From positions 1-64,000 of the forward strand of contig WTGH01000031.1 of assembly GCA_011523655.1 (NCBI GenBank): a stretch of 64,000 nt of DNA, in the 5' to 3' direction. Shown piece by piece: positions 1 to 6,392 of the stretch. A program made the translations under genes and the position numbers. The DNA comes from Rhodospirillaceae bacterium (GTDB taxonomy: Bacteria > Pseudomonadota > Alphaproteobacteria > Bin65). Numbering within the stretch: position 1 is the first letter of the stretch; each line of letters starts with the position of its first letter. Under the pieces are notes generated by a model. The model worked only from the letters and a program-made list of their open reading frames with translations. It searched no databases and was not told where the DNA came from.

Positions 1-541
1 CGCCTTCGACCGGGGCTATGCGATCGAATCGACGTGCCATGCGCCGGACAAGGCGGGCGCGTTCGCCGAGATTTACCGCGTGCTGAAACCCGGCGCTCTC
101 TTCTGGGGTCAGGAAATGTGCCTGACGGACAGGTTCGATCCCGACGACAGCCGGCACCGGGCCATGAGGCAGGAACTGATGCACGGCATCGCGCTCAAGG
201 AAATCGCGACGACGGGCGAGGTCGATCGGGCGCTCGAAATTGCCGGGTTCCAAGTCATCGAGGGAAGCGACCTGGCCGTCGGGGAGAACGGTCCGGTCAC
301 GCCGTGGTACCGACCCATGGAGACCCGGCGCGGAACGGTTGGCAATGCCCTGCGCAGGACTCCGCTGGGCCGCAAGGCGTTCCTCGGGGCCTCCAGGCTG
401 GCCGAGATGGTGGGCGTTTTCCCGAAAGGCTCGACACATGTCGTCCGGCTGCTGGATCGCACCGCCGACGCCTATATCGCCGGTGGCAAAGCCGGAATCT
501 TCACGCCGTTGTATTGTTTCCTGGCGCGCAAGCCGCTTTAG
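1..541 (+). CDS. smt: Sterol C-24 methyltransferase (SMT/Erg6 family), 3' part only
   Basis: The gene enters from the left edge, open in frame from base 2, and 179 residues are visible. These enzymes transfer a methyl group from S-adenosylmethionine to C-24 of the sterol side chain. The fragment carries the SMT signature YAIESTCHAP (residues 6-15), matching YAIEATCHAP of yeast Erg6, then EIYRVLKPG. A PWYRP motif and a C-terminal AGGKAGIFTPLYCFLARKP follow, matching the sterol-methyltransferase C-terminal domain (Erg6 has AGGKSKLFTP and FVARKP). That C-terminal domain separates SMTs from generic methyltransferases such as tocopherol methyltransferase. Full-length SMTs have about 340-380 residues, so roughly half, including the SAM-binding glycine loop, lies outside the window. 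It converges on the P450 gene with 38 bases between the two stops. An internal ATG at 80 is not the start. SMTs are rare in bacteria. Substrate cannot be read from the fragment. Confidence 0.9.
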   Translation, partial: AFDRGYAIESTCHAPDKAGAFAEIYRVLKPGALFWGQEMCLTDRFDPDDSRHRAMRQELMHGIALKEIATTGEVDRALEIAGFQVIEGSDLAVGENGPVTPWYRPMETRRGTVGNALRRTPLGRKAFLGASRLAEMVGVFPKGSTHVVRLLDRTADAYIAGGKAGIFTPLYCFLARKPL

Positions 542-579: not shown

Positions 580-2613
580 TCAGACGGGCAGTCCGCGCTT
601 CTGCTCTGCGATACGGAACTTCAGTTTCTTGCTCGGTTTCATCGACGGGAGCGGACTGAAGCTGAGCGAATCGGCATAGCTTGCGGGAGACACCTCGAGG
701 GTGAAGTGGTGCGCGATCATCAGCAGATTGACGGCCAGTTGCAGGTCCATCCACCGGTTGCCGAGGCAGGTGTGCGTACCCAGCCCGTAGGGCGCGTAGC
801 CGGGATCGCGGTGCTCGCTGCGCGCCGGCAGATAGCGGTCGACATCGAATGAGAAGGGGTCGGGGAAAACGTCTTCCATGTAGTGCGAAGCCGTTTGGGC
901 GATATAGACCCGCGACCCGACCGGTATTTCGTATCCCTCGACCACGAAGGTATTCATGACATCCCGCATGGACATCGGGACGATCGGGTACATGCGCAGG
1001 CATTCGGTGAGGAAGCGGTGCGTGAACTCGATCGCGGACGGGGTGAAATCTTCACCGTCCGGATCGCCGTTCTCGAACAGGGCATCGGCTTCGGCCCGGA
1101 TTTTCTCGTAGTGCTCGGGCTGCGACGCCATGGCGTAAACCGCGAAACTCAGCGCATCGCCGAGATACACGCTGGCAACCAGCGCAGCGGACAGGGCGAA
1201 GCGCAGGTTCGCCTCCGGCACCAGCTGCGGATCGCTCGCGTGCAGGCTCAGCCAGTCGTCGGTAAGGTTCCGCGGGCAGCCGACCCGCTGAGCCGGCGTA
1301 TGGACGCTTTGGACCCGTTCGAGCAGCGTGTCGACGGTTTTCGCCCGGCGCTTCATCCCCGGGGTATTCAGCATGAATTTGGGCAGGGCCTTGATGATGT
1401 GGGTGATGAGCGCACGCTCCTTGAAGGCCATCAGGTCGTCGATGATGTCCTGAGAATCGACGCTGATGAAAAGAGGCGAGAGCTGCGCGTTCACCATGCG
1501 CCGGCACAGGCGCGTCGCCTGGTAGGTTTCGCCAACCTTCCAATCGGCCATGTATTTGCGGACATAGTCGTAAACATGGTCAAGCTGACCGGCTAGCCGC
1601 CCGCGCGAATAGGCCGGCCCCATGGCCTTGCGTAGGCGGAAATGATCGGCGCCGTCCAGCGACGGCATGACCCCGTGCGCGCCGTAGATTTTCTCGAAGT
1701 CCGCAAAATAATTTCCGGCATTCAGGTGCATCCGCCCGTGCCGATGCACCCAGCGGTTCGTCTCCGGCCCGGCGAGAAAAATCATCGGTCTGCCGAACGG
1801 CACACGGACCTCGAAGACCGGGCCGTATTTTTTTGCGAGATCCGCAAAGACGGCGGGAATGTTGCCGTTGCGCAGATGAGGATTGAACAGCAAATCGCGC
1901 AGCGAAACCCGCTGAATTGGCTTGGTCAGAGCCGAATGCCGAAGCATCGGGCTGGCGATGGTGTGTTCGACCGCATCGGCTATGGAACGGCCGATCAGGT
2001 CCATCTTGCAGATTAATTCGATGCGCCGTTCCGCCTCGTCGTCGAGTTCGAATATAAAGCGAAACACGTCGCAAGTATTGACGAGGCAAACGACGATGAT
2101 GTCTCTCGGATCGGGAATCGTGTCGGTGAAGATGCACTCGCTGATGCGTGTTTTGATGAACTGACCTGCGGTGTCTTGCCGGTCATTGCCGTGCAGATCC
2201 GTGAACCAGTTGGTCGGGGCCAGCGTCCAGAAGTCGCCGTCGTGGTGGCTCAGGATCTTAAGATCGACCAGGCGGTCCAGGGTCAAATCGATAATCGACT
2301 CCGCCTGGATAGCGAACCGTTCGATCCAGTACTGGGCGTTGCGTTGCTCCGGTTCGTTCGCGATTTCCTCCAGAACGGGATCCAGGGTGGGGTTGCCCGT
2401 TTCTGTCCGGTCCACGAGGATCAGCGAATCCAGGTCCGTATCGATGCGCGACAGGAGGGAGAGTTCTGCCAGCACAGAACCGACAACGGCGCAGTTCAAT
2501 TCCCAGCCATGGACCTGGTAAAAATAGCCGGTCTCCTCGTTGAGGAGCATCAGGATGAGCTCTTCCGGGAGGCTCAGCGATTGCGTCGTCAATCCCTCGA
2601 CAGAATCGGGCAT
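580..2613 (-). CDS. GPP34 (GOLPH3-like) domain fused to a cytochrome P450
   Basis: This 677-residue protein has two parts. Residues about 12-225 resemble the GPP34/GOLPH3 fold, with LSLPEELILMLL near the N-terminus, the LAELSLLSRI pattern, TGNPTLD, a YWIE segment and DPRDI. In eukaryotes GOLPH3 binds phosphatidylinositol-4-phosphate on membranes; the role of bacterial GPP34 domains is not known to me. Residues about 245-660 form a P450: ExxR helix at E537-R540 (ECLR) and haem loop YGLGTHTCLG with the cysteine ligand at residue 616. The I-helix lacks the usual AGxDT oxygen-activation motif and reads VYLGDALS instead. The start at 2613 is chosen because AAGGAGG lies 8 bases upstream (2622-2628), although the frame stays open further upstream. 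There is no fused ferredoxin or reductase, so redox partners are elsewhere. Next to a sterol methyltransferase and a Rieske oxygenase, a sterol or triterpenoid hydroxylase/demethylase is the best inference. It is not clearly CYP51. Confidence 0.85.
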   Translation of the reverse strand: MPDSVEGLTTQSLSLPEELILMLLNEETGYFYQVHGWELNCAVVGSVLAELSLLSRIDTDLDSLILVDRTETGNPTLDPVLEEIANEPEQRNAQYWIERFAIQAESIIDLTLDRLVDLKILSHHDGDFWTLAPTNWFTDLHGNDRQDTAGQFIKTRISECIFTDTIPDPRDIIVVCLVNTCDVFRFIFELDDEAERRIELICKMDLIGRSIADAVEHTIASPMLRHSALTKPIQRVSLRDLLFNPHLRNGNIPAVFADLAKKYGPVFEVRVPFGRPMIFLAGPETNRWVHRHGRMHLNAGNYFADFEKIYGAHGVMPSLDGADHFRLRKAMGPAYSRGRLAGQLDHVYDYVRKYMADWKVGETYQATRLCRRMVNAQLSPLFISVDSQDIIDDLMAFKERALITHIIKALPKFMLNTPGMKRRAKTVDTLLERVQSVHTPAQRVGCPRNLTDDWLSLHASDPQLVPEANLRFALSAALVASVYLGDALSFAVYAMASQPEHYEKIRAEADALFENGDPDGEDFTPSAIEFTHRFLTECLRMYPIVPMSMRDVMNTFVVEGYEIPVGSRVYIAQTASHYMEDVFPDPFSFDVDRYLPARSEHRDPGYAPYGLGTHTCLGNRWMDLQLAVNLLMIAHHFTLEVSPASYADSLSFSPLPSMKPSKKLKFRIAEQKRGLPV

Positions 2614-2895
2614 CGGCCATGCCTCCTTGGGCCCGAAGCGGTGCGAATTCCGCGATCGGCACATTCGCAAGCCGCCGATACACCGCATCCGGAGATTTGA
2701 ACTGCTGTCGGCGTTCAATTCCAAAACCGAATGTCGGGCCCGGACAGACCGCCGTCAAGTCCGCAGAATTTGAGTTATCCGCGTCGATGCCTTCGCTGGT
2801 GAGGGCGATTCCGCATTTTGCGGGCCGGCAAACGACGGTCTCCTCCGGCCAGGTCTCCACGAACTCCGCCCGGCTCTTGCAGCGCCTCGCGCCGT

Positions 2896-3996
2896 TCAGC
2901 GGGTGCGAGAGGCCGGCTGCTTCTCCGTGCCGACGGAATGCCGATCCGCAGCTCGGGAGCCACAAAACTGGCCGTCCGGATAAAACTGCTCGCAATAGCG
3001 CCGGTATCTTCCGATCGGCCCGTCCGAAGCGCAGAGCATGGGGCGCGGCCGGTACCGTTTCCGGCTCCAGATCACGACGTCCTGCAACACGTCGTGCCTC
3101 TGGGCCGCCATGATGATCTTGTTCATGATCCGCGTGCGAAGGCGCGGCGGGAGAAAGCGCATCCCGACGATCGGCCGCTTCGGCCCGAGCAGTTGCCGGA
3201 CCTGGCTGACCAGCGTCATTTCCACGAGGTCGCCGTCGATCGGCGTTGCGAGCACCCACAAGCGGGTATCCATGCCGATATTGTGTTCGCGGACCTCGAC
3301 ATACGAATAGCCGAACCCGTGCACATGGGTGACGGCGGACACGTCGTAGGCGAAGACCTTTATCCCGGCGACGGTCTGGGTTCGCTTGAAGTCGAAGCAG
3401 CTCTTGAGCCAGGCGCCGTCGACCGATACCGGCCTGACCCCGCTTACGCTGTTATAGCCGTGGACATAGCGCAGATGCCCGAGATCGACGGAATTTTCCG
3501 TCGTTTCCTGGGGGTGGCCGGAGAACCGTACGCTCCAGGCTTCCATTCCGCACCAGTCGGAGCCGGCCGGCGGCGCTTCCGGAAGGTCCCATTGCGGCGG
3601 CCGGCCGCCGCTGCTCCACCAGGCGAAGATCAGGCCGAGAATATCGCGGGTCTCGAACACCTTGAGCCTGGCGGACCTGGGCGCCGGCGCATAGGGCGTG
3701 GCGACGCACTGGCCGGTGGCATCGAATTCGAAGCCGTGAAACGGACATACGAGGCAGCCGTCGCGGACCCGCCCGCCGGCTTCGGGGCCCAGATCGGAGC
3801 CCATATGCGGGCAGGTCGCTACGGCAACGCAGACGTCCCCGTCGTCGTTGCTCCAGACGACGATCCTTTCGCCGAGCCAGGTTTTCTGGAGCAGCTTTTC
3901 CTTCCCGATGGTTTCGCGGCGGGCGACGAAATACCAGCCCTCCGGAAACGGAAAAAGCTCGGCGGAGACATTGTGCTCGTTCGGATCGGTTTTCAT
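2896..3996 (-). CDS. Rieske [2Fe-2S] non-haem iron oxygenase, steroid/sterol-type
   Basis: The 366-residue protein has an N-terminal Rieske domain with CPH (C62, H64) and CPFH (C84, H87) binding the 2Fe-2S cluster. A catalytic domain follows with the mononuclear-iron motif ENSVDLGHLRYVH (N168, D171, H174, H179). The FPFPEGWYFVA opening and the spacing of the two motifs recall cholesterol 7-desaturase (DAF-36/Neverland), 3-ketosteroid 9-hydroxylase (KshA) and the Rieske enzyme of bacterial sterol C-4 demethylation. These all need an external reductase, and none is visible here. The start at 3996 gives a normal family N-terminus; an upstream extension open to 4257 is low-complexity and overlaps the divergent gene. 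It shares its strand with the P450 gene, 282 bases upstream of it, so they may be co-transcribed. A substrate related to the SMT product is inference. Confidence 0.87.
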   Translation of the reverse strand: MKTDPNEHNVSAELFPFPEGWYFVARRETIGKEKLLQKTWLGERIVVWSNDDGDVCVAVATCPHMGSDLGPEAGGRVRDGCLVCPFHGFEFDATGQCVATPYAPAPRSARLKVFETRDILGLIFAWWSSGGRPPQWDLPEAPPAGSDWCGMEAWSVRFSGHPQETTENSVDLGHLRYVHGYNSVSGVRPVSVDGAWLKSCFDFKRTQTVAGIKVFAYDVSAVTHVHGFGYSYVEVREHNIGMDTRLWVLATPIDGDLVEMTLVSQVRQLLGPKRPIVGMRFLPPRLRTRIMNKIIMAAQRHDVLQDVVIWSRKRYRPRPMLCASDGPIGRYRRYCEQFYPDGQFCGSRAADRHSVGTEKQPASRTR

Positions 3997-4237
3997 TTGC
4001 CGCGGATTTGCCCCGCTCCGAAAACTGCAGTTCCGCCGGCCGAACGGCCGGCTCGACCGCAGGGATATCGGGGCATGTATGGTATCGGGCAGTACAGGGC
4101 AATCGAATCCGCGCCGGAAATGCAAGTCCCGGACTCCCGGGACATCGGGCCCGCCTCTTCCTAAGTTCGGGAGTGAAGCCCGCACGCGGACGATGGTAAG
4201 GGTAGGTAATGCCACGAGCGATACGAGGTCTGCGGCG

Positions 4238-5596
4238 ATGCCGAGACGGGTTGCCATTGTCGGCGGAGGAATCTCGGGGCTGGGCGCTGCCTGGGCGCTG
4301 CATCGGCACCCCGACCGCTTCGAATTCCGGCTGTTCGAGGCGCAGGATCAGGTCGGCGGCAACGCGGTCACGGCCGACATGCCGCAGGACGACGGCACCT
4401 CGATCCCGTTCGATGTCTCCGTCACGGCGTGCATACCGTCGGTATACCACCACATTCTGCTTCTCATGCAGCAGCACGGTATCGAGCTGGTCGATACCAG
4501 ATTCAGTTACAGCGTGAAGTATCGCGGCGGCATCTACGCCCACGATTTCGCTTCGGACATCAGGAGGCAATTGCAACCGGAAATCGAGAAATTCCAGAGG
4601 CTCTTGCGGCGTCTGAAATGGTTTGGCCGGCTCAACCGGTCGAGATCCCGGCTGCTCAACGCGCTCAACCCCTTCAACTATGTCAGCATGGGGACCGTTC
4701 TCAACTTCGGCAGGTTTTCCGGCGATTTCAGGTACAAGATACTCAAACCCATGTTCGTCAATTTCCTGATGGCGACGAACGTGTTCGACATGCCGGCATC
4801 CCTTTTTGCCCGGTATCTGGAGTTTTTCGATATCGAAACCGCAACCCCGATGCAGACCTGGGACCGCGGTACGCGGCGCATTTATGAAAACCTGTCGGCC
4901 GAATTCCGGGACAGGATTTACCTCGGCCGGCCGGTCCGGAAAGTTTACCGGCGCCCGTCCGGGGTCGTCGTGGAGGATGAAAACGGAGACGAAGAAACGT
5001 TCGACGACGTCGTTTTCGCGTGCAACGCGAACCAGACGCTGATGATCCTGGACAAGCCGACCTTACTGGAGAGCTGGCTTCTCTCCTCGATCCGCTACGA
5101 GAGCGAACTGCACAACCATACGGTCGTTCATTCGGACGCCTCGGTTCTTCCGGACAACGAGGCCCGGCCGCTCGCCACCCGGAGCAACCATATCGAGCAG
5201 TATGGCGCCCGGCCGGACAACTACGAAATCACCTACATCATGCACAATCAGCAGCCTTGGGCGAACCTGTCGGACAAGCCCTGCCTGGTGACCTACAACC
5301 CGATCAGCCGGATCGACGACAACAAAATCGTCAAAAGATGGTGGTTCCAGCACATCGTGCACGACGTGCGGCACATCGCATTCCTGATCCACCTGTTCCG
5401 CTTCGTTCAGGGCAAACGGCGAACCTGGCACTGCGGCGCCCATACGCTCATCAACAGTCAGGAAACCTGTTTCGTGACCGGCCTCGTCACGGCAAGGCAG
5501 ATGGGCGCGGAGTACCCGTTCCGGGACTCCGAAGCGCGGAAGTGGTTCAATTTCTACGGGCGCACGATGTACGGCTGGCGCTTCCGGAAGGCGTGA
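4238..5596 (+). CDS. FAD-dependent oxidoreductase, amine-oxidase fold (COG2907-like)
   Basis: The 452-residue protein begins with a Rossmann dinucleotide-binding motif, VAIVGGGISGLGAAWAL (GGGISGLG at residues 9-16), an acidic end of strand 2 (E34), then QVGGN, as in flavin-containing amine oxidases, desaturases and protoporphyrinogen oxidase relatives. The middle (SVTACIPSVYHHI, FSYSVKYRGG) fits the COG2907 group of predicted NAD/FAD-binding proteins, often found beside cyclopropane-fatty-acid synthases. The chosen ATG follows GAGG by 9 bases and places the FAD motif at the N-terminus. An ATG 45 bases upstream is possible. It is divergent from the Rieske gene across about 240 bases that probably contain both promoters. 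In this neighbourhood a double-bond reductase, desaturase or alcohol oxidase acting on a sterol is plausible, but the reaction cannot be read from sequence. Confidence 0.8.
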   Translation: MPRRVAIVGGGISGLGAAWALHRHPDRFEFRLFEAQDQVGGNAVTADMPQDDGTSIPFDVSVTACIPSVYHHILLLMQQHGIELVDTRFSYSVKYRGGIYAHDFASDIRRQLQPEIEKFQRLLRRLKWFGRLNRSRSRLLNALNPFNYVSMGTVLNFGRFSGDFRYKILKPMFVNFLMATNVFDMPASLFARYLEFFDIETATPMQTWDRGTRRIYENLSAEFRDRIYLGRPVRKVYRRPSGVVVEDENGDEETFDDVVFACNANQTLMILDKPTLLESWLLSSIRYESELHNHTVVHSDASVLPDNEARPLATRSNHIEQYGARPDNYEITYIMHNQQPWANLSDKPCLVTYNPISRIDDNKIVKRWWFQHIVHDVRHIAFLIHLFRFVQGKRRTWHCGAHTLINSQETCFVTGLVTARQMGAEYPFRDSEARKWFNFYGRTMYGWRFRKA

Positions 5597-5633: not shown

Positions 5634-6392
5634 CTATCCCACCATGGAGTAGCCGCCGCTGATGCTGAGTATCTGGCCGGTGATCCAGCTTGCGCCGCCC
5701 GACGCCAGGAAGACGATGGCGGGCGCGACGTCCTCGGGCGTGCCGATCCGGCGCATGGGATATTGCCGGACGATCTTCTCGCGGTTCTTTTCCAGCCAGT
5801 TCGGGTCGGTGTGGGTGGTCTCGACATAGCCGAGCGCGACCGCGTTGACCGTAACGCCGGACGGGCCGAACTCCTGCGCCAGCGACTTGGTGAGCGACAG
5901 CACGCCTCCGCGCGCAGATGTCGTGACCGAAAGGGCCTTCCCGCCGATCCGCGCGGAATCGCCGGCGAGGTTGACAATGCGCCCGCCGCCTTGCTCGACC
6001 ATGCGGGCGCCGACCGCGCTGCAGCAATGAATCACGCCGTAGAGGCCGACATCGATCTGGCGTTTCCATTCCTCCGGGCCGGTGTCGAGGAAACGGCGCG
6101 GCTCGACATAGCCGGCGTTGTTCACCAGCACGTCGATCCGGCCGAAGTCGCCGACAATCGCCTCGGTCATGGCCTGGACAGACTCGAGGTCGGCGACATC
6201 CGCCTGGTAGGCCTTGGCCTTTCCCCCGTTCTCGGTAATTTCACCGACCACGCTGCCGGCGGCGTTTGCCGACCGGTTGTAGTTCACGGCCACGGTCGCG
6301 CCCTCCGCGGCGAAGGCCAGCGCGGTCTCGCGGCCGATGTCCCGGGCGCTGCCGGTGACCAGGGCGACCTTGCCTTCCAGATCAAGATTCAT
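5634..6392 (-). CDS. Short-chain dehydrogenase/reductase-like protein lacking the catalytic triad
   Basis: This 252-residue protein has the classical SDR fold. The cofactor motif TGSARDIG is at residues 13-20, NNAG at 91-94, and the C-terminus GQILSISGGYSMVG is normal for the family (close to BadH-type hydroxyacyl-CoA dehydrogenases). Aligning it by eye to NISSDAG...YSAAKGG of typical members, the catalytic Ser is Gly144, the Tyr is Thr157 and the Lys is Arg161 (VTTSARGG). All three active-site residues are replaced, so normal SDR hydride chemistry is unlikely. Its ATG overlaps the stop of the molybdopterin subunit gene (ATGA), and GGGAGA lies upstream, so it is translated as the last gene of the molybdenum-hydroxylase operon. 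The reading frame is intact, which argues against simple decay. It might bind CoA esters or NAD(P) structurally, but this is speculation. Confidence 0.88.
   Translation of the reverse strand: MNLDLEGKVALVTGSARDIGRETALAFAAEGATVAVNYNRSANAAGSVVGEITENGGKAKAYQADVADLESVQAMTEAIVGDFGRIDVLVNNAGYVEPRRFLDTGPEEWKRQIDVGLYGVIHCCSAVGARMVEQGGGRIVNLAGDSARIGGKALSVTTSARGGVLSLTKSLAQEFGPSGVTVNAVALGYVETTHTDPNWLEKNREKIVRQYPMRRIGTPEDVAPAIVFLASGGASWITGQILSISGGYSMVG

Follow-up and report, generated by a model that had tools for sequence, protein, structure and literature searches.

The incomplete sterol methyltransferase (SMT) gene at the start of the analysed DNA is, on balance, probably part of a horizontally spread, cyclase-independent cassette that would modify acquired sterols. 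The window, meaning the whole 64,000-base stretch (G000:C24:1-64000), encodes one of four SMT classes found within the genus, for which the letters A to D were coined in this analysis. Class A is that of the window, class B is encoded on contig C64 of the same genome, and classes C and D are found beside a sterol operon or alone. We favour this reading because the window protein has a Sterol_MT_C domain and an IESTCHAP motif, because linkage to the cassette recurs across about twelve bacterial phyla, because every cassette neighbour resembles a steroid enzyme or protein (CYP51, KshA, a sterol-sensing transporter) and because class-A SMT genes adjoin genes for de novo sterol synthesis in five loci (L043, L068, L069, L079 and L091). 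Horizontal spread is suggested by the mixing of phylum labels in the SMT tree together with the lower GC content of the cassette, and acquisition of sterols by the lack of both cyclase and squalene epoxidase in G000 (the host) and the congeners G002 and G004.

The SMT fragment and its full-length orthologues

The features of the window, with the basis for each, are:

2..541, + strand, class-A SMT, C-terminal 179 of an expected ~345 residues (Sterol_MT_C; orthologue L024; contig start)
580..2613, - strand, GPP34::cytochrome P450 fusion, 677 aa (GPP34 at E=1.5e-28 and p450 at E=8.2e-36, both in a single protein)
676..1869, - strand, P450 domain of the fusion (Pfam PF00067; PDB profile search; Foldseek)
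1963..2571, - strand, GPP34 domain (Golgi phosphoprotein 3-like) within the fusion (Pfam PF05719)
2896..3996, - strand, KshA-type Rieske non-haem iron oxygenase (KshA_C E=3.4e-25, Rieske E=4.9e-18)
3997..4201, no strand, intergenic, separating the Rieske and FAD genes, which diverge (gene orientations)
4202..5596, + strand, FAD-dependent amine-oxidase-like oxidoreductase (Amino_oxidase E=3.2e-21, NAD_binding_8 E=9e-12; exact start uncertain)

The reading frame at 2–541 is open at its 5' end, and its 179 aa form the C-terminal half of an SMT-family protein. The N-terminal half is missing because the window starts with the first base of the 77,373-base contig, where the assembly ends. A preliminary description of this DNA had reported an SMT signature and a complete C-terminal domain, and both are confirmed by the motif YAIESTCHAP, which is of the IEATCHAP type, and by a Sterol_MT_C match (E=1e-17, 64.4 bits against a Pfam cut-off of 21.7) that places the protein in the family. 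Pfam also returned Methyltransf_11 (E=9.5e-5), and the protein ends in GIFTPLYCFLARKPL.

Full-length orthologues of 345 aa were found in G002 and G004, with the same neighbouring genes as in the window. They are L024 (L024:8042-9079) and L027, which are 94 % and 89 % identical, respectively, to the visible half of the window SMT, and in them the approximately 166 residues absent from the window can be seen. The SAM-binding motif (Region II, DxGCGxGGP), which lies outside the window fragment, is present as DVGCGIGGP in L024. The AlphaFold2 model of the SMT has a mean pLDDT of 86; no close relative stood out in a search of the PDB, which listed mostly other SAM methyltransferases.

Base differences between the window SMT and its two orthologues fall at the third codon position in 23 of 34 and 35 of 58 cases, the pattern to be expected if the gene is under purifying selection. 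This bias and the lack of stop codons rule out a pseudogene, and the synteny conserved in G002 and G004 rules out eukaryotic contamination, which the preliminary description had likewise considered unlikely. Though the SMT abuts a contig end, as a contaminant or decayed gene might, such an origin is scarcely credible in view of these findings and of the bacterial neighbours. That the contig is bacterial, as first described, also stands: the flanking genes are bacterial, the locus is common to congeners, and the 80 nearest relatives found for the SMT are all from bacterial metagenome-assembled genomes (MAGs).

Region I and the methylated position

Region I of Erg6 is Y81EYGWG86, and its aromatic residues are reported to be needed for the cation-pi step in C-24 methylation (PMC6997595; PMC5711494). 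Classes B, C and D retain YEYGWG or a close variant. Class A retains the GWG and the third aromatic residue (F, W or Y), but Met occupies the position of Tyr81 in 82 of 82 full-length class-A sequences, and the position of Glu82 is mostly Val. Recovery of the full-length gene, which the preliminary description had proposed, was possible through the orthologues; their sterol-binding Region I, which falls outside the window fragment, is atypical (MTFGWG in L024, MIFGWG in L027). The non-canonical Region I of class A counts against the preferred reading. The name sterol C-24 methyltransferase given earlier was not retained, since Tyr81-Glu82 is replaced by Met-Thr or Met-Ile in the orthologues and mostly by Met-Val across the clade. 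With Met in place of Tyr81 throughout, we do not assert C-24 methylation; on its sequence, the class-A protein is assigned to the SMT family.

The enzyme may instead methylate another position of the sterol, such as C-4 of a 3-oxo sterol, as the nematode STRM-1 (4-SMT) does, a reading that we consider rather unlikely. It would account for the loss of Tyr81 and Glu82, and it fits the presence of a KshA-type Rieske oxygenase alongside the SMT in the cassette, given that the STRM-1 pathway includes the sterol-modifying enzyme DAF-36, which is also a Rieske oxygenase. Loss of the Region I aromatics was itself an argument for a different chemistry in the nematode enzyme, but the latter is only 21 % identical to Erg6 (PMC6997595), whereas class A keeps GWG, the third aromatic residue, IESTCHAP and a strong Sterol_MT_C match.

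Phylogeny and distribution of class A

Class A forms a single clade (SH-aLRT 100) in a tree of 95 sequences, built by a quick method with midpoint rooting from a sample that included neither eukaryotic SMTs nor the SMTs assayed by Brown et al. 2023. It was found at 80 MAG loci carrying 12 phylum labels, namely Chloroflexota, Gemmatimonadota, Actinomycetota, Pseudomonadota, Acidobacteriota, Nitrospirota, Thermodesulfobacteriota (Dadabacteria), Nitrospinota, Myxococcota, Latescibacterota, Rhodothermota and Bacteroidota, or 11 if the last two are taken as one. Phyla are mixed at well-supported forks, which unite Gemmatimonadota with Gammaproteobacteria (support 100), place Acidobacteriota within a Gemmatimonadota clade (support 100) and join Actinomycetota to Chloroflexota (support 98), though single cases of such mixing may reflect mis-binning of MAGs. 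The description of the SMT as eukaryotic-type could not be upheld, as it lies in a large, exclusively bacterial clade of this tree, sampled as stated above; judged by sequence, class A is a distinct bacterial SMT clade.

The putative tailoring cassette

Every cassette gene except the transporter is intact in the window (580–5596). The SMT and GPP34::P450 genes are convergent with 38 bp between their stop codons, and the Rieske gene lies upstream of GPP34::P450 in the same direction. The FAD gene diverges from the Rieske gene and, from these orientations, 3997–4201 is probably the promoter region of the pair. The start of the fusion was set at the ATG shared with its orthologue (the mechanical reading frame extends to 2724) and that of the Rieske gene at 3996, also from an orthologue (reading frame to 4257). 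In G002 and G004 the gene directly upstream of the SMT encodes a transporter with MMPL and sterol-sensing domains, the latter a marginal match beside the former; the stretch corresponding to this position lies past the contig end in G000. A short-chain dehydrogenase (SDR) gene at 5634–6392 was considered as a further member and rejected, as G002 alone has a close relative at that site, and matches elsewhere reached 27–37 % at most.

Near the class-A SMT, GPP34::P450 is found at 55 of the 80 loci, the KshA-type Rieske gene at 46, the FAD oxidoreductase gene at 31 and MMPL at 14. Gene order is shuffled, and the median gap between P450 and SMT is 81 bp. At least one cassette gene is present in the examined flanks of 61/80 loci; the other 19 show none across 9 kb, in some cases owing to a short contig, and these loci count against the preferred reading. 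In G001, G003 and G005, all of which lack class A, the fusion is likewise paired with an MMPL gene. The cassette has a lower GC content (61.5 % and 62.6 % in the two leading 3-kb bins) than the remaining window (63.7–70.5 %), which fits horizontal acquisition. Neither the GPP34::P450 fusion nor the cassette was found described in the open-access papers to which the search was confined (subscription papers and preprints fell outside it).

The fusion protein aligns across both domains in 35 homologues, and its AlphaFold2 model has a mean pLDDT of 82. The P450 domain contains the heme motif GLGTHTCLG and an ExxR motif (ECLR), whose Cys, Glu and Arg are invariant in the alignment. Its best PDB match by sequence is CYP51 of Methylococcus capsulatus (E=6e-31), and its best match by fold (Foldseek) is also CYP51. 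By these matches the domain is CYP51-like. Most P450s carry a Thr in the I-helix, but the HT motif of CYP51 (sterol 14-demethylase) is lacking here, the aligned segment being ASVYLGD, and given the Thr-less I-helix the reaction may be unusual. None of the aligned homologues that were examined has the usual Thr in this domain (676–1869 in the window) either. Apart from the fusion, the host encodes a separate GPP34 protein (L033:9253-9987, G000:C10) that shares 36 % identity with the GPP34 half, and such a protein is present throughout the genus, in all of its genomes.

The protein encoded at 2896–3996 includes both Rieske and KshA_C domains, and the best PDB match of its orthologue is KshA, a 3-ketosteroid 9-alpha-hydroxylase (E=9e-28); 9-alpha-hydroxylation of 3-ketosteroids is a putative activity. 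For a part of the cassette in steroid catabolism by the 9,10-seco route, TIGR03213 gave only sub-cut-off matches in all three genomes searched. The best PDB match of the FAD enzyme is LkcE (E=3e-27). As LkcE belongs to lankacidin synthesis, and the predicted SMT fold is common to small-molecule and terpene C-methyltransferases, the substrate might be a non-sterol lipid (another polycyclic isoprenoid or natural product) and the cassette a secondary-metabolite pathway. This seems improbable set against Sterol_MT_C, the CYP51-like P450, the KshA-like Rieske enzyme, the sterol-sensing transporter and the five loci where class A adjoins sterol operons.

Sterol supply

The host genome is a draft of 4.27 Mb in 70 contigs, 96 % complete. 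In G000, G002 and G004, all drafts, no oxidosqualene or hopene cyclase was found (no PF13243 match in G000) and there is no clear squalene epoxidase; the only match in G000 is weak (E=5.9e-6), the level seen in genomes that lack the enzyme, compared with 1e-21 to 1e-25 in cyclase-bearing congeners. Squalene-synthase-type genes are present in all three, and each genome has two SMTs. The second SMT of G000 (class B; L003:6664-8710, on C64) is complete and divergent. It has the motif QIEALPHAP and overlaps a KshA_C Rieske gene; G002 also has the two together, next to an isochorismatase-like gene.

Four of the seven congeners (G001, G003, G005 and G006) have both cyclase and squalene epoxidase in a full sterol operon, made up of genes for a 3-beta-HSD-like epimerase, a Rieske protein, ERG4/ERG24, a P450 and a squalene epoxidase::oxidosqualene cyclase fusion. 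One complete operon is at L031:1268-9474 (others are in L022, L025 and L028) and ends in the fusion, of ~1150 aa. The fusion was set aside as a novelty because fused SMO/OSC was already mentioned by Brown et al. 2023. SMTs of class C (and D) follow the operon. In G003, three tandem SMTs (two class D and one class C; L025:8237-11429) adjoin the cyclase operon and are a candidate for stepwise alkylation of the side chain. The SMTs of G006 appear to be split into frame-shifted pieces (L029:9792-10700; L031:9440-9840), and one of them has part of the cyclase fusion next to it.

These four congeners, the squalene-synthase-type genes of the host and the incompleteness of its assembly could be taken to mean that the window encodes an ordinary C-24 SMT of a complete de novo pathway, the cyclase of which is missing from the assembly. 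The reliance on draft genomes is also a point against the preferred reading. However, three independent genomes lack cyclase and epoxidase yet have two SMTs each, and the cyclase-adjacent SMTs of the congeners are of class C or D, not A, making a de novo role very unlikely. Beyond the genus, a strong squalene epoxidase match was found in 8 of the 35 class-A genomes reached through named loci, and 27 had none. Two of the records, OX638332 (Dadabacteria) and OX638327 (Nitrospirales), are titled as single chromosomes and gave no match or a weak one only; the Dadabacterium also lacks a squalene-synthase-family gene. The case for class A acting on acquired sterols rests chiefly on this distribution of sterol-synthesis genes, within the genus and beyond it.

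The MAG series of Rhodospirillaceae bacterium bin65 (MPMX01000011.1) presumably came from the sponge Aplysina aerophoba, although the record title does not mention a sponge. Judging from record names, not every one of which was traced to a sponge, class-A hosts are apparently sponge symbionts (PMC8163846).

Proposed role and significance

In the reading we prefer, that of a cassette for acquired sterols, the bacterium would take up sterols from the sponge or from sterol-making co-symbionts, and the class-A SMT would transfer a methyl group from SAM to the sterol, with C-24/C-28 of the side chain as the most likely site. Oxidation of the ring or side chain would fall to the P450 and Rieske enzymes and dehydrogenation to the FAD enzyme, while the MMPL protein would move the product toward the outer membrane. 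More tentatively, an SMT with a remodelled Region I and a membrane-targeted, Thr-less GPP34::P450 could jointly perform a sterol modification not yet described, as a system shared by horizontal transfer among about a dozen phyla that converts host or co-symbiont sterols to compounds now attributed to the sponge.

24-Alkylated steranes, above all 24-isopropylcholestane, are read as traces of early animals, and the cassette bears on which organisms are the true makers of the unusual sterols ascribed to sponges. If symbionts from many phyla carry SMTs and sterol oxygenases without being able to make sterols, host and community would jointly shape the sterol profile of a sponge, and a bacterium that lacks a cyclase could not be excluded as a contributor. 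The cassette is a defined gene set open to expression and assay, and the genus offers a natural comparison between species with a full sterol operon and species with modification genes only.

Comparison with known systems

Functional bacterial SMTs, and steroid gene clusters spread over many phyla with horizontal transfer, are already known. Brown et al. 2023 expressed bacterial SMTs and demonstrated 24-isopropyl products (PMC10070321), and Kelly et al. 2022 reported steroid gene clusters (CSGs) and enriched SMT1/ERG6 in Ircinia symbionts (PMC9531527); the earlier statement that only few bacteria are known to have SMT activity is thus out of date. As here, the SMTs of Brown et al. 2023 are from uncultured bacteria, several from sponge metagenomes; some are clustered with sterol genes, and one from a Chlamydiae MAG occurs without sterol biosynthesis homologues, but the GPP34::P450 cassette is not mentioned in the main text (PMC10070321). 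The Ircinia CSGs likewise occur in 10 phyla of bacteria and show signs of horizontal transfer, with SMT1/ERG6 enrichment. However, their core is ERG24-CYP51-ERG7 (de novo synthesis), none of which is in the cassette (PMC9531527), and the cassette is found mostly in genomes without squalene epoxidase.

Class A shares Sterol_MT_C, the SAM motif (seen in the orthologues) and the IEATCHAP-type motif with Erg6, SMT1 and SMT2, and differs from them at Y81-E82. Like STRM-1, the nematode C4-methyltransferase, it is an SMT relative without the canonical Region I aromatics, but it keeps GWG and one aromatic residue, STRM-1 being compared by description only (PMC6997595). The P450 domain is closest to M. 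capsulatus CYP51 (PDB 6MI0, 7SNM) in sequence and fold, at ~22 % identity, though it is fused to GPP34 rather than to ferredoxin and lacks the I-helix Thr (AGHHT in M. capsulatus). The Rieske enzyme shares its domain pair with KshA, whereas its gene lies beside an SMT rather than among steroid-catabolism genes.
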